Shown here in pieces: positions 46,166 through 54,004 of a stretch of DNA of 64,000 nt. Under the pieces are notes generated by a model that saw nothing but the letters and a program-made list of their open reading frames with translations, was not told the DNA's origin and made no database searches. A program made the position numbers and the translations under genes. Position 1 is the stretch's first letter; each line of letters begins with the position of its first letter. Source of the stretch: SAR86 cluster bacterium SAR86E (GTDB taxonomy: Bacteria > Pseudomonadota > Gammaproteobacteria > Magnimaribacterales > D2472); assembly GCA_000307935.1 (NCBI GenBank), contig AMWX01000008.1, positions 124,001-188,000 of the forward strand, read 5' to 3'.

Positions 46166-47587
46166 ATGCGTTCACATTATTGCGGGGACATTAATAATTC
46201 AAATATAGCTAGCGAAGTTGAAATTTCTGGCTGGGTTCATAAAAGAAGAGATCATGGCGGTGTAATTTTCTTAGATATCCGTGATTTACACGGGATAGTT
46301 CAGGTTGTTTTTAACCCTGATATTAAAGAGGTTTTTGACTTAGCTGATTCATGCAGAAGTGAGTATGTTGTTAATGTAAAAGGCTTGGTTCGTAAAAGAA
46401 TTGAAGGTGCTATAAACCCAAAAATGGCTACTGGTGAAATTGAAATCGAAGCCAAAGAAATTAAAATTTTTAGTGAAGCTGTTACACCTCAGTTTCCTTT
46501 GGATGACTATCAAGAGGTTAGTGAAGATGTAAGATTAAAGCATAGATTTATCGATCTCAGGCGACCTGATGTTAGTCAAAAACTTGTTAAAAGATCTAAA
46601 ATAAATTCAAAAATAAGGTCAATTCTTGAGAAAAATAACTTCCATGAGATTGAAACTCCAATTTTAACAAGAGCAACTCCAGAGGGAGCAAGGGATTACT
46701 TGGTACCTAGCAGAGTTCATCCAGGTGAGTTCTTTGCTCTCCCACAATCACCTCAACTTTTTAAGCAACTATTAATGATAGGAGGTTTAGACAAATATTA
46801 TCAAATAGCTAAGTGTTTTAGGGATGAGGATTTACGTGCAGATCGTCAGCCAGAGTTTACACAGGTAGATATCGAGGCTTCATTTGTAACGACTGAGGAT
46901 ATCATTAGGCTTGGAGAGGATATGATTCTTTCTTTGTTAAGCAATTTTACTGACTATAAAAAAACGACAGTTCCTAGAATTACATACAAAGAATCTATTA
47001 AAAAATATGGCTGTGATAAACCTGATCTAAGAATCCCATTAGAGTTACAAGATATATCTGAGTTGGTAAAAAATGAGGATTTTAAAGTATTCTCTGGGCC
47101 TGCAAATGATAAGGAATCCAGGGTTGTTGCATTAAAAGTACCTGGAGCCGCATCTATGACAAGGAAAAAAATAGATGCATATACTGATTATGTAGCGAAG
47201 CTTGGTGCAAAGGGTCTCGCATATATCAAAGTAGTTGAACTGAACAAAGAGAACGGATTGCAATCACCAATATTGAAATTTTTTCAAAAAGAAACAATTG
47301 ATTCAATTATTGCATCCTTAGATGTATCCAATGATGACATGATTTTTTTTGGCGCCGGAAAGGAAAATATTGTTAATCTTTCTATGAGCTCTCTTATTAA
47401 AAGGCTAGGTGAAGATCTTGGTCTGATAAATGCATCTTGGGCGCCATGTTGGATTATTGATTTTCCTATGTTTGAGAGGAACAAGGAAAATAACCTTACA
47501 TCGTTACATCATCCCTTTACATTACCCGCAGTATCAGTAGATGAACTAAAAGCTGATCCAGATAAAACCTTAAGCGACCGTCACTGA
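46166..47587 (+). CDS. aspS: Aspartyl-tRNA synthetase, 3' end lost at a sequence junction
   Basis: The N-terminal OB-fold anticodon-binding domain (SGWVHKRRDHGGVIFLDIRD) and the start of the class II core are intact: ETPILTRATPEGARDYLVPSR, FALPQSPQLFKQLLM, KCFRDEDLRADRQPEFTQ, and the bacterial insertion domain up to FPMFERNKE and HHPFT. After KADPDKTLSD the frame ends RH-stop. Normal bacterial AspRS has ~590 residues, so ~120, including motif 3 (GLDR) and the ATP-binding end, are missing. True aspS sequence ends at about 47,577. As written the product could not charge tRNA; because the enzyme is essential, a misjoin is the first suspicion. Confidence 0.9.
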   Translation: MRSHYCGDINNSNIASEVEISGWVHKRRDHGGVIFLDIRDLHGIVQVVFNPDIKEVFDLADSCRSEYVVNVKGLVRKRIEGAINPKMATGEIEIEAKEIKIFSEAVTPQFPLDDYQEVSEDVRLKHRFIDLRRPDVSQKLVKRSKINSKIRSILEKNNFHEIETPILTRATPEGARDYLVPSRVHPGEFFALPQSPQLFKQLLMIGGLDKYYQIAKCFRDEDLRADRQPEFTQVDIEASFVTTEDIIRLGEDMILSLLSNFTDYKKTTVPRITYKESIKKYGCDKPDLRIPLELQDISELVKNEDFKVFSGPANDKESRVVALKVPGAASMTRKKIDAYTDYVAKLGAKGLAYIKVVELNKENGLQSPILKFFQKETIDSIIASLDVSNDDMIFFGAGKENIVNLSMSSLIKRLGEDLGLINASWAPCWIIDFPMFERNKENNLTSLHHPFTLPAVSVDELKADPDKTLSDRH

Positions 47588-49682
47588 GAACTGTTTTCCA
47601 ACCAAATTCATAATTGGTCACTTCATCTGATTCAGTAATAGGTGGAACGGTATATTTTCCATCAGGCGTAGAATCACCACCAGGTCGATTCAAAAGTCCG
47701 GGTCTAAAACCCTCTGACCAAGTGAGGTAGTACATAATGTCTTCAGATGGATTCCAAGAGTAAGTAATTTTTCCAATCACCCCATCAGTCTCAGCTTTAT
47801 CAGGATAATCCATTGCATCTAATGCAGGATTACCTGAACTGCCTCCAGGCCCATTGTATTTATTGGAAAGGTTAGTTCCAAATCTTTGGCGATCATTATG
47901 AGCAGCTAATCCAGGCACAAATCCAGTAGAAAATGAGGAGTTGGCACTTCCTTCCAAGTCCACTTCAATATCGTACCAACGTGCGCCAACCGTCAGCTCA
48001 GATGTTTCTGATACATCGACACTTAGCTCACCGAAAACACCTTGTTGCTTATCAGTCCTTCTTACATCATTAACAAACATGACAGGGGGAGCATACGGTC
48101 CCCTACCTGAATGCCAGCCAGCACCAGCATTTGAGCTGCTTCCAGTTAGCGGAACACCTGTGACTGAGGTATCTGTAAGCGCATAATTAAGCCCATAGCC
48201 TATATCACTTACAAGCGCGCCTGGATAAGTAAACATATTGTGCTCTGTTAACTCAAGATCACTAAAAAATACTCCGGCAGTAAGACTCATGGTGTCATTG
48301 ATTGGAGCATTAACTCTGAGTTCATGGGTTTGAACTTCAGATTCAACTATTGAATCTACATACATATCTGGCGCTCCACAATCACCATATGGAAGACCTG
48401 TATATGGAGCGGGAACTTTAGCTGGGTCACTGTTTGCATATGTGACGTAATAATCACAAATGTAGTATGGGAGATACTGACCCACAAAAAGATAGTCAGT
48501 ATAGTCAATTCTTTGATCAGAGCGTCTGTCAGTATAAGCACCAGCATAGACAACCTCCAAATCACCGATTGATCCTTCTAAGGTTAAGCTTAAATTATCA
48601 AATTCATCAGCAATGCTGTCATCATGATATCTCTTTACTTCTAGATCTCCCAGGGTTGGATCTGCAAAAAAGACCCCATCAGATTCGATGGTTTGATTGG
48701 CAACGCTAACTAAAGCATCCCAATTATCATTCAGCTCAGTTTTAATGCTTGCTCTGAAGCCATGATAAGTTGATGTGTTGACATCATCTTCAACAATTGC
48801 ATTTGCACTTTGTCTGGTCACACCTGTTAAATCAGCATTTGCTCTCCAACCATCTCTTGAAGAAGCAACAGGTAAGCCATTGGATCTTACAGTACCAGCT
48901 GGTCTCCAAGCTGCAGATTGACTGACATCTACCGACCCAGCAACCTGATCAATGTATCCGCCCCTTTCATCACGATATGCAACAAATCTTAAAGCCGAAG
49001 AATCACTCAAAGGTACATTAGACATGTATTCAACCTTAGAGCCTACATCACCGTCAGGCATGTATCTTCTTTCAATTTCTAAACTGCTAGCTGATTCACC
49101 AATAACAGGTTTATTTGTAATCAGCCTAACAACACCAGCTTGTGAGCTTGCACCAAATAAAGTTCCTTGAGGTCCTGACAATACCTCAATACGAGAAACA
49201 TCTGCAGCATAAACATCAAGATTTCTGCCCGGATAAGCAAGCGGTTGCTCATCTAAATAAAAAGATACGTTTGGAGCCAAACCCCCAACACCGGCAGTTG
49301 TTAAATTTGGGGTAGTTGATGCTAAACCTCTTATATAAATGGTACTTTGACCAGGCCCCGATCCACCTGCTGTGACACCAGGTAACTGTAAAAGATAGTC
49401 CTCAAAAACATTGATTCCTTTCTCTTCAAGAGTTTCTTCCCTCAATGCAGAGACAGAAAGTGGAACATCTTGCAGGCTTTCAGTTCGCTTTCGAGCTGTC
49501 ACCACCACCTCTTCAACCGTCGCTTGAGTTTGCGCAGCTATATATCCACTGAATGCAGAGGCATTAACAATTGCCATCGCAGACAAAGATGGAATTATCT
49601 TCTGAGTAATTTTGTTAACAGTAGCCTTGCTAAAGATATTTTTTATTTTATTTAAATAGTTACTTTTCATAGTATTCAGCAT
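47517..49682 (-). CDS. TonB-dependent outer membrane receptor, 3' end lost at the same junction
   Basis: A long signal region (residues ~25-52) precedes the TonB box EEVVVTARKR at ~57. The plug domain follows (QDVPLSVSAL, GLLPG-like LQLPGVTAG, YIRGLAS, VLSGPQGTLFGASSQAGVVRLIT). Beta strands of the barrel run to NYEFGWKTVLSDGRLRF at about residue 706. After that the frame reads antisense aspS (YLDQLLVHLL...) and stops. Receptors of this subtype continue ~100-250 residues further, ending in an aromatic. Real receptor sequence is therefore ~47,565-49,682. The ligand is unknown; such receptors take up siderophores, vitamins, glycans or lipids. It diverges from a BCCT transporter. Confidence 0.9.
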   Translation of the reverse strand: MLNTMKSNYLNKIKNIFSKATVNKITQKIIPSLSAMAIVNASAFSGYIAAQTQATVEEVVVTARKRTESLQDVPLSVSALREETLEEKGINVFEDYLLQLPGVTAGGSGPGQSTIYIRGLASTTPNLTTAGVGGLAPNVSFYLDEQPLAYPGRNLDVYAADVSRIEVLSGPQGTLFGASSQAGVVRLITNKPVIGESASSLEIERRYMPDGDVGSKVEYMSNVPLSDSSALRFVAYRDERGGYIDQVAGSVDVSQSAAWRPAGTVRSNGLPVASSRDGWRANADLTGVTRQSANAIVEDDVNTSTYHGFRASIKTELNDNWDALVSVANQTIESDGVFFADPTLGDLEVKRYHDDSIADEFDNLSLTLEGSIGDLEVVYAGAYTDRRSDQRIDYTDYLFVGQYLPYYICDYYVTYANSDPAKVPAPYTGLPYGDCGAPDMYVDSIVESEVQTHELRVNAPINDTMSLTAGVFFSDLELTEHNMFTYPGALVSDIGYGLNYALTDTSVTGVPLTGSSSNAGAGWHSGRGPYAPPVMFVNDVRRTDKQQGVFGELSVDVSETSELTVGARWYDIEVDLEGSANSSFSTGFVPGLAAHNDRQRFGTNLSNKYNGPGGSSGNPALDAMDYPDKAETDGVIGKITYSWNPSEDIMYYLTWSEGFRPGLLNRPGGDSTPDGKYTVPPITESDEVTNYEFGWKTVLSDGRLRFYLDQLLVHLLILRVM
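47565..47577. other. Junction between two unrelated gene fragments with ~13 bp microhomology
   Basis: The bases AAACCTTAAGCGA (47565-47577) read as KTLSD in aspS on the plus strand and as part of SDGRLRF in the receptor on the minus strand, and both readings fit their families. Left of it only aspS makes sense; right of it only the receptor does. This is the pattern expected when two sequences are joined at a short shared word. Confidence 0.8.
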
Positions 49683-49908: not shown

Positions 49909-51411
49909 ATGTTTAAAAATATAGCGCCCAAACGCTTTCTATTTTCAATCCTAGTCATTACTTCGTTTATTGGAATTACGCTTGCCAATCTAAATCAAGC
50001 TGATAGCTTATTTGCAAATCTCCAGAAAGAAATTTCTGACAACCTTGGCTGGTTGATTATTTTAGCAGCAAATGCAATTTTGATATTTGTAATATTTCTG
50101 GCATTTAGCAAACATAAAAATGTGATTCTGGGAGGAGCGGATGCAAGACCTGAGTTTTCAAATATTAACTGGATCGCTATGTTGTTTAGCGCTGGATTAG
50201 GTATAGGCCTTCTGTTCTATGGTGTTGCAGAGCCCATTTTACATTTAAGTTCTGATGTAATACATCCAGTTGATGCTGAGTTTGCAGATCGAGCCAATCT
50301 TGCCATGAACTTTACATACCTGCACTGGGGCTTTCATGGTTGGTCAATATACGCCGTGGTTGGACTTTGTTTTGCATACTTTACGTTTAATAAAAATAAA
50401 CCTTTTAGAATAAGCTCATTTTTTTCTGGCAGCCTCACCGATCGAGTTTGGGGTCGAGTCTCTCTTGATGTGATTGCAATCATAGCGACCATTTTTGGAA
50501 TAGCGACCTCGCTTGGTCTTGGAGCTAACCAAATTAACTCAGGTCTTGGATACATGGGTGTTCTCGATGAAAGCTTTAGCAGCACAGTAGGCATTATTAT
50601 TTTTATTACAATCCTTGGATTGATCAGCGTGGTGCTTGGTCTCAAGACTGGAATTAAAAGATTGTCTCAAATCAACATGATTTTATGCTCATTGTTTCTT
50701 TTATTTATCTTTTTTGCTGGGCCGTCTGCCTACATTCTTGATGGCATTATTCAAAATATTGGTTCGTATCTTCAGAAGATCTTAATTCTATCCTCGAGCA
50801 CTCAGGGATATGCTGATTCGGCATGGCAAAATAGCTGGACTCTTTTTTATTATTCATGGTGGTTTGCCTGGTCTCCATTTGTTGGACTATTTATCGCGCG
50901 AATTTCATACGGTAGATCGATTCAAGAATTTTTATTAGGAGTGGTACTTGTGCCCTCTATATTGGTATTCATTTGGATGGGCGTTTTTGGTAATGCTGCT
51001 TTAAATCAGGAGTTTCTGGAGCCAGGCTCGCTCAGCACAGCAATTAACAATGATATTACGATCTCTTTGTTCGTATTTCTTGAACAATTCCCATATGCAC
51101 CTGTGTTAATGGGTTTATCAATATTAATTATATTAACTTTTTTTGTAACTTCTTCAGATTCAGGTGCATTGGTTACATCAATGCTAACTGCCGCAAACAA
51201 TGAAAGCGCGCAAGAAGAACCGCCGATGACGCTGAGGGTAATATGGGCTCTATCTTTGGGTGTTATAGCAATTGTACTTTTAGCGGGAGGAGGGCTGAGT
51301 GCACTTCAAACCTCAGTGATTGTCACTGGCGCTCCTTTTGCAATTCTAATTTTCTTTGCTTGCAAAAATTTATTAAACAATCTTAATGAACAATCTAACT
51401 CATTAGATTGA
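49909..51411 (+). CDS. BCCT-family betaine/carnitine/choline transporter
   Basis: Twelve hydrophobic segments are expected in this 500-residue permease. Family signatures are NWIAMLFSAGLGIGLLFYGVAEP (residues ~82-105) and SWWFAWSPFVGLFIARISYGRSIQEF (~325-350), whose tryptophans form the substrate cage for trimethylammonium compounds. The glycine-rich unwound helix (SAGLGIGLLFYG) resembles sodium-coupled members such as BetP. Substrates may be glycine betaine, choline, carnitine or DMSP; the sequence alone does not decide. The long regulatory C-terminus of BetP is absent. Confidence 0.92.
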   Translation: MFKNIAPKRFLFSILVITSFIGITLANLNQADSLFANLQKEISDNLGWLIILAANAILIFVIFLAFSKHKNVILGGADARPEFSNINWIAMLFSAGLGIGLLFYGVAEPILHLSSDVIHPVDAEFADRANLAMNFTYLHWGFHGWSIYAVVGLCFAYFTFNKNKPFRISSFFSGSLTDRVWGRVSLDVIAIIATIFGIATSLGLGANQINSGLGYMGVLDESFSSTVGIIIFITILGLISVVLGLKTGIKRLSQINMILCSLFLLFIFFAGPSAYILDGIIQNIGSYLQKILILSSSTQGYADSAWQNSWTLFYYSWWFAWSPFVGLFIARISYGRSIQEFLLGVVLVPSILVFIWMGVFGNAALNQEFLEPGSLSTAINNDITISLFVFLEQFPYAPVLMGLSILIILTFFVTSSDSGALVTSMLTAANNESAQEEPPMTLRVIWALSLGVIAIVLLAGGGLSALQTSVIVTGAPFAILIFFACKNLLNNLNEQSNSLD

Positions 51412-52384: not shown

Positions 52385-53881
52385 ATGAAAATTAACTTCC
52401 TTACATTAGTAACTGCTGGGATTCTTTTACTTGCTCGAGTTGAAGCAGGAGAATTCCAGGTTGGATTTGCACAGCTCTCAATTACTCCCGACCTGATAGA
52501 TCAATGGGTCGACATAAACAATGATGCCCAATTTGATCCTGATATTGATCTATGGACAGATGTTAATGGTAATGAAAAATTTGATGCTGTGTGGATGGCA
52601 GGTTTTCAAAAAAAACGACCTGCGCAAGGCATAAAAGACGACCTTATGGCAGTGGCGGTAGTAATTGATGATGGTATAAATCGTATTGGGATTGTATCTG
52701 CTGATACGGTCGGCTTGATGCGTAAATTTGTAATTGATATTCGTGAAGCTGTGCCTACAAATTGGGGTTTAGATTATCTTATGGTGCATGCAACTCATAA
52801 TCATGAAGGTCCCGATACTCAAGGTCTTTGGGGGCCAGGTTTTTTTACCTCCGGCATTGATCCTGATTACATGGCGCAATTACAGCAAAATATACTAGAT
52901 GCACTAAGCGAAGCCATAGACAACTTAGAGCCCGCGCAGATGAGTATGGCGCGCATTCCAACAAATCCATTAACACCAATCAAAGATAAGCGTAAACCCA
53001 TCGTAATAGATGACGATATTCGAGCATTATTATTTAGCCGACCAGATGGTTCAGTGATAGGTACATTAATTAATTTTGGAATTCATGTAGAACTTGCTTG
53101 GGATAAAAATCTAGAATTAACAGCAGATGTGGCTGGCTATCTTAGAAGAGGACTCAGTGAGGGTATTTATTATGAGAACGAGCTATTGAAGCCTGGACTT
53201 GGTGGAACCACATTATGGCTTACAGGCAATATTGGAGGCTTAATGACTTCTGGGCCAGATGATGCCATCTATGATCCATTTTTAGAGAAAACTATTACTA
53301 AGCCAGGTCACTCCAAAGCTCGTACCTTTGGTTATAGTTTGGCAAACAGCGTCATTGATGCTTTCAATGAAAATAGTTTTGTGCCTAGTCCAGAACCAAC
53401 AATAACTTTCAGCGCCCTCGAGGTAGAATTAGGTATAGATAATTTCATGTTATCGTTGGGCACCCTGCTAGGTATTGTCGATAGCAGCCCCCAATTTCAT
53501 CTGATGCCACCATTCATTCGTTATCTCAGTGAAGTGGCATTCATTCAATTGGGAGATGCAACTATTACTGGCATTCCTGGCGAGCTATATCCAGAAATTG
53601 CTGTGGGTGGCATAGAAAATCCCAAAGGTGCTGATTACGCCATAGCACCTCAAGAAGTACCTCATTTGCGCAGTCAACTTCCGGGTAAATTAAATCTCAT
53701 GGTGAACTTGGCAAATGATGCTATCGGTTACATCATTCCAAAAAGTGAATGGGATAACGCCCCTCCCTGGATCTATGATGAGAATGATGAGACTTATGGC
53801 GAGGTTGTATCCTTGGGTCCAAATACTGCTCCAATTATTCACCAAACTGTAATCAAGTTAGCAGAAGAGTCAAAACCTTAA
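52385..53881 (+). CDS. Secreted neutral-ceramidase-like hydrolase
   Basis: A signal peptide covers residues ~1-22 (ending VEAGE). The motif ATHNHEGPDTQG (136-147) corresponds to the zinc- and substrate-binding HTHSGP region of neutral/alkaline non-lysosomal ceramidases. Other fits are GFAQLSITP near the N-terminus, NFGIHVEL (zinc His) near 250, and YIIPKSEWDNAPPW near 460. Known members hydrolyse the amide bond of ceramide. An unusual insert right after the N-terminal strand has two acidic loops, DINNDAQFD (43-51) and DVNGNEKFD (59-67), resembling calcium-binding loops. With 498 residues it lacks the C-terminal domain of full ceramidases (~640-670), so the natural substrate may be another amide or ester. 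Confidence 0.75.
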   Translation: MKINFLTLVTAGILLLARVEAGEFQVGFAQLSITPDLIDQWVDINNDAQFDPDIDLWTDVNGNEKFDAVWMAGFQKKRPAQGIKDDLMAVAVVIDDGINRIGIVSADTVGLMRKFVIDIREAVPTNWGLDYLMVHATHNHEGPDTQGLWGPGFFTSGIDPDYMAQLQQNILDALSEAIDNLEPAQMSMARIPTNPLTPIKDKRKPIVIDDDIRALLFSRPDGSVIGTLINFGIHVELAWDKNLELTADVAGYLRRGLSEGIYYENELLKPGLGGTTLWLTGNIGGLMTSGPDDAIYDPFLEKTITKPGHSKARTFGYSLANSVIDAFNENSFVPSPEPTITFSALEVELGIDNFMLSLGTLLGIVDSSPQFHLMPPFIRYLSEVAFIQLGDATITGIPGELYPEIAVGGIENPKGADYAIAPQEVPHLRSQLPGKLNLMVNLANDAIGYIIPKSEWDNAPPWIYDENDETYGEVVSLGPNTAPIIHQTVIKLAEESKP

Positions 53882-53928: not shown

Positions 53929-54004
53929 TGGCATCCCGTAGGGGAGTCGAACCCCTGTTGCCGAGATGAAAACCCGGTGTCCTAGGCCTCTAGACGAACG
54001 GGAC
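53929..54004 (-). tRNA. tRNA-Glu (anticodon UUC)
   Basis: The complement reads GTCCCGTTCGTCTAGAGG..., with the anticodon loop GTTTTCAT (TTC), T-arm GGGGTTCGACTCCCC, and an encoded 3' CCA. It is 76 nt long and matches the bacterial tRNA-Glu body closely. It stands alone rather than in an rRNA operon. Confidence 0.96.

Follow-up and report, generated by a model that had tools for sequence, protein, structure and literature searches.

The closest described systems are the neutral ceramidases (EC 3.5.1.23), represented by the Pseudomonas aeruginosa structures 2zws and 2zxc and by human ASAH2 (4wgk). These enzymes comprise about 640–690 aa and carry a C-terminal Ig-like domain. For the Pseudomonas aeruginosa ceramidase (PaCD), we take the zinc ligands and active-site residues of the structure to be H97, H99, R160, H204, S274, E411, Y448 and Y460, counted on the 2zws chain. 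In human neutral ceramidase, the catalytic residues are His196, Arg257, Tyr579 and Tyr591, and Ser354 stabilises Arg257 (PMC6952831). A second group comprises short ceramidase N-terminal-domain proteins from Ponticoccus, Nitratireductor, Sphingopyxis, Agrobacterium and haloarchaea, which have a single catalytic domain and the zinc residues, while the active-site Ser is often replaced. The third group consists of three gammaproteobacterial proteins, designated L028, L036 and L037.

SAR86 bacteria are among the most abundant in the surface ocean, with streamlined genomes and few exported enzymes. The window analysed here, a stretch of 64,000 nucleotides from SAR86 cluster bacterium SAR86E, contains a ceramidase-like open reading frame of 498 aa, with an ATG at 52385 and a stop at 53881. 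Its extent and N-terminal segment are as follows.

52385–53881, plus strand: ceramidase-like gene, 498 aa (open reading frame, orthologues and dN/dS).
52385–52447, plus strand: signal-peptide-like segment, residues 1–21 (MKINFLTLVTAGILLLARVEA), read from the sequence; helix at residues 2–20 in the model.

This is a genuine, functional gene with a patchy distribution. It is single-copy in its genome (1.4 Mb assembly, 87.8% complete) and was identified in 21 of 116 genomes of the same order, each at least 80% complete, with all 21 frames open and free of stops. Orthologues in SAR86 and in a small number of other marine gammaproteobacteria are 69–89% identical over the full length; most of the named carriers are SAR86 genomes from single cells or metagenomes, together with a K189A-clade bacterium. 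Comparison with two near orthologues indicated purifying selection, with a dN/dS of about 0.08–0.13 (dN 0.053–0.062, dS 0.47–0.64). Relatives were not found in the viral contigs and phages searched, and our literature search returned no paper joining SAR86 with ceramidase in substance. With its hydrophobic N-terminal segment of signal-peptide type, the protein is probably exported, either to the periplasm or beyond the cell.

The protein lies outside both curated families. Pfam PF04734 (Ceramidase_alk) scored 23.2 bits over residues 69–190 only, below the gathering cut-off of 32.1, with 20–25 bits in SAR86 relatives, and the NCBIfam neutral ceramidase equivalog NF041649 (EC 3.5.1.23) scored 18.6 bits against a cut-off of 1200. 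A phmmer search of the PDB with the single sequence found nothing relevant, and a profile of 16 orthologues matched human neutral ceramidase 4wgk with an E-value of 9e-5. Structure prediction had been proposed as a check in the sequence-only reading. The first model, built from close orthologues alone (pLDDT 55), was replaced by an AlphaFold2 model whose alignment included distant relatives (pLDDT 84.2, pTM 0.87). This model covers the catalytic domain only, and its confidence is low at residues 463–470, where one of the candidate catalytic tyrosines lies. Foldseek against the PDB matched it to neutral ceramidases only (4wgk, 2zws and 2zxc; E about 1e-21, TMq 0.61–0.63, 552–590 columns), with the fifth match falling to E 0.01; the weaker first model returned the same four matches. 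Over the catalytic domain, the protein thus shares the neutral-ceramidase fold as modelled. Profile, alignment and fold comparison together bear out the ceramidase-like fold and zinc site proposed from the sequence.

At about 14% sequence identity to the neutral ceramidases, the protein keeps the catalytic His and all four zinc ligands in the alignments. The residues around the zinc site are listed below.

52796–52804, plus strand: H138 (zinc ligand) and H140 (PaCD H99, human His196), invariant in all 30 rows of alignment A2.
52991–52993, plus strand: R203, putative equivalent of PaCD R160 and human Arg257, from alignment of the NR(S/R) motif; present in 30 of 30 orthologues.
53084–53092, plus strand: H234 (zinc ligand) and the subfamily-specific E236, from alignments; E236 in 30 of 30 orthologues.
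53234–53248, plus strand: G284-G-L-M287-T288, replacing the ceramidase hexapeptide G(D/N)xSP in gapless alignments; M287 in 30 of 30 orthologues.
53582–53584, plus strand: E400, zinc ligand (PaCD E411), from alignments.
53729–53731, plus strand: Y449, zinc ligand (PaCD Y448), invariant in A2.
53795–53797, plus strand: Y471, candidate for PaCD Y460 and human Tyr591, in 29 of 29 orthologues covering the position.

In the alignments, H138 and H234 correspond to PaCD H97 and H204, and PaCD H99, R160, S274 and Y460 correspond to H140, R203, M287 and Y471 (or Y464). H138, H140, H234, D248 and Y449 are invariant across the 30 members of A2, and E400 is conserved in at least 90%. The His-rich catalytic motif that had been recognised from the letters is real and reads VHATHNHEGPD, containing H138 and H140. 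The register of R203 is less sure than those of the zinc ligands, and that of Y471 is uncertain, with Y464 as the alternative.

Two substitutions set this site apart from that of the neutral ceramidases. Glu236, two residues past the second His ligand, replaces PaCD Thr206; relatives carry Thr, Val or Ile at this position, and it was not Glu in any of the short N-terminal-domain proteins read. The active-site Ser of G(D/N)xSP (PaCD Ser274) is replaced by Met287, in the sequence GGLMT. Gly284 was considered as the counterpart of the lost Ser and ruled out, since the gapless alignments give Met287. Other Ser-less relatives carry Asn (Ponticoccus, Sphingopyxis, Natronosalvus and Nitratireductor), Val (L066 and L043) or Ala (Agrobacterium) at the same site. 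Activity may thus survive without the Ser, since human Ser354 stabilises Arg257 and is not among the catalytic residues (PMC6952831). The dN/dS values further imply that selection outlasted the loss of the Ser.

An acidic insert of about 25 residues follows the first strand (span 41–70, WVDINNDAQFDPDIDLWTDVNGNEKFDAVW) and contains two DxNx(D/N) loops.

52511–52549, plus strand: acidic loop 1, D43-I-N45-N-D47-A-Q-F-D51...D55 (orthologue conservation; pLDDT 86–89).
52559–52585, plus strand: acidic loop 2, D59-V-N61-G-N63-E-K-F-D67 (orthologue conservation).

Across 30 distinct orthologues, D43, D47, D55, D59, N61, G62, N63, F66 and D67 are invariant, while N45 and D51 are kept in 29; this near-total conservation indicates that the pattern is not due to chance. 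The two loops noted earlier beside the N-terminal strand are therefore real, with ligand-type residues retained in 29–30 of 30 sequences, although the second is strictly DxNxN. The whole insert region was modelled at pLDDT 86–89. A Pfam scan of the insert identified no calcium-loop family (EF-hand, dockerin or TSP3), the only match being GEVED at E 0.18, below the cut-off. Given the acidic loop pattern and its conservation, the insert is a probable binding site for one or two calcium ions. It is absent from the neutral ceramidases, from the short N-terminal-domain proteins and from the 20 distant relatives aligned, so that within the genomes and plasmids searched here it is restricted to the clade. 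Inserts of the form DxNGNxxFD-VW resembling it presumably occur in annotated ceramidase-like proteins of other phyla.

L028, L036 and L037 share with the SAR86E protein the C-terminal motif GYII(P/T)xxx...Y(E/G)E-VS(L/M)G-TAP and a comparable length after the His motif. They differ in having the Ser, within ADAS(P/S/G), and a different, longer insert at the position of the acidic one. L036 (G170:C8 249096–249590) also differs by a fusion, its ceramidase-like domain following long, acidic thrombospondin-type-3-like repeats in an open frame of 6,307 aa.

The SAR86E protein ends about 50 residues past Y449, compared with total lengths of 646 aa for 2zws and 688 aa for 4wgk. The absence of the C-terminal domain, which the sequence-only reading had pointed out, is thus confirmed against both structures, but it is not a special feature. 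A large number of relatives that bear the annotation 'neutral/alkaline non-lysosomal ceramidase N-terminal domain-containing' consist of one domain and are equally short or shorter, including those of Ponticoccus, Sphingopyxis, Agrobacterium, Natronosalvus and Nitratireductor (about 394–448 aa). The short N-terminal-domain proteins align with the SAR86E protein at 23–31% identity over part of its length, and some lie within amidohydrolase/sugar clusters. In Ponticoccus and Nitratireductor, the gene has an amidohydrolase gene on one side and one for a sugar-type solute-binding protein on the other, a setting which suggests that short, Ser-less members of the fold do not all act on lipids. Short ceramidase-like genes were observed on alphaproteobacterial plasmids (L038:2947–4230 and L079:1947–3209), in clusters with genes for a SIS/sugar isomerase, 6-phosphogluconolactonase, an amidohydrolase and a sugar ABC transporter, a context that hints at an amide, such as an amino sugar, as the substrate.

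We consider it fairly probable that the SAR86E protein is an exported zinc-dependent amide hydrolase with the neutral-ceramidase catalytic fold, belonging to an uncharacterised marine gammaproteobacterial subfamily. The data above establish homology, fold, purifying selection and the conservation of the zinc residues and of the insert; export, metal binding, catalysis and substrate are what we infer. In the proposed mechanism, zinc held by H138, H234, E400 and Y449 would activate water, H140 would serve as acid/base, and R203 together with a tyrosine (Y471 or Y464) would polarise the substrate carbonyl. With calcium bound, the insert (41–70) would stiffen the segment next to the first strand, perhaps making up in part for the stabilising effect of the domain missing at the C-terminus. 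The substrate may be an N-acyl compound other than ceramide, such as an N-acyl amino acid, an aminolipid or an amino sugar, scavenged from seawater. The exchanges of Ser for Met and Thr for Glu beside the zinc suggest that it is not ordinary ceramide, which is possible as a substrate and not favoured.

An unlikely alternative is a true ceramidase, with ceramide specificity kept despite Met287 in place of Ser, that cleaves algal, protist or viral ceramides or glycosphingolipid-derived lipids. The exclusive fold match to neutral ceramidases and the complete zinc site are in its favour. In addition, no serine-palmitoyltransferase-like gene was found in the genome (88% complete assembly; best TIGR01825 score 23 bits), in line with the earlier remark that most gammaproteobacteria make no sphingolipids, and any sphingolipid substrate would therefore be foreign. 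This reading has to contend with the failure of both family models, the missing C-terminal domain and hexapeptide Ser, and Glu236 by the zinc ligand. The doubt already raised about ceramide was reasonable, and it is strengthened by the loss of the Ser and by relatives in amidohydrolase/sugar operons.

The departures at Met287 and Glu236, in a family that is large and mostly uncharacterised, would also suit a zinc enzyme of this fold that hydrolyses an ester, lactone or phosphate bond. We regard this as improbable, since to our knowledge all characterised enzymes of the neutral-ceramidase fold cleave amides, and no gene neighbourhood backs another chemistry. Least probable is a catalytically dead binding protein, for example one that binds extracellular lipids or glycans: the hexapeptide Ser is missing in all 30 orthologues, but it varies across the wider family, and the zinc ligands and catalytic His are strictly retained. 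Returning to the amide hydrolase, a bolder form of this reading, to which we give only tentative credence, is that of a distinct marine subfamily in which calcium loops at the N-terminus stand in for the stabilising C-terminal domain, with a zinc site re-tooled (Met for Ser, Glu by the second His ligand) for an amide that abounds in dissolved organic matter and had not earlier been attributed to this fold. What is new is an invariant insert of metal-loop type and a remodelled active site on a known fold. If the amide hydrolase reading is true, a conserved exported zinc enzyme in part of SAR86 would point to a testable way in which lipid- or amino-derived amides are used, and would show how the ceramidase fold operates when both the customary Ser and the C-terminal domain are gone.

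The gene sits in a variable region beside a tRNA gene, and two upstream genes provide context only.

47517–49682, minus strand: TonB-dependent receptor, its 3' end truncated by a junction near 47.57 kb.
49909–51411, plus strand: BCCT transporter (PF02028, E 3.9e-161); adjacency not conserved.

These two neighbours had been read as a hint at the use of lipid-derived compounds. The receptor and BCCT pair was observed near the ceramidase-like gene in only 1 of 12 other loci (L004), about 5 kb away, so this hint finds no support. Neighbours differ by locus (SDR, aldo/keto reductase, MsrAB, malate dehydrogenase/LysS, or M20 peptidase with a PQQ fusion), and proximity to the pair was therefore dropped as a substrate clue. 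No conserved partner gene naming the substrate was found among the loci compared. Downstream, tRNA-Glu, trmJ, suhB, secF and secD are common to L002 and L013, and tRNA-Glu–trmJ also to L004, while the upstream side varies. At the tRNA-Glu(TTC) gene (53929–54004), the trmJ-suhB-secFD side is constant in near relatives, and the ceramidase side varies in gene content and length. Further upstream, aspS (46166–47587) stops at position 474 of 586 of TIGR00459 and runs up against the inverted frame of the TonB receptor, whose 3' end is likewise cut. As aspS, broken there, is single-copy in the assembly, the 47510–47600 junction has the look of a chimera arising from assembly or whole-genome amplification, not of a true gene order. 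In L008, L009 and L012, the ceramidase-like gene adjoins an M20 peptidase gene and, downstream, a gene whose conserved product is about 1,100 aa long (L008:3188–6496, L009:9404–12736 and L012:9458–12757) and has beta-lactamase-like, PKD and PQQ domains; in L008 these form a fusion of a beta-lactamase-like serine hydrolase with a PKD domain and a PQQ-dehydrogenase propeller.
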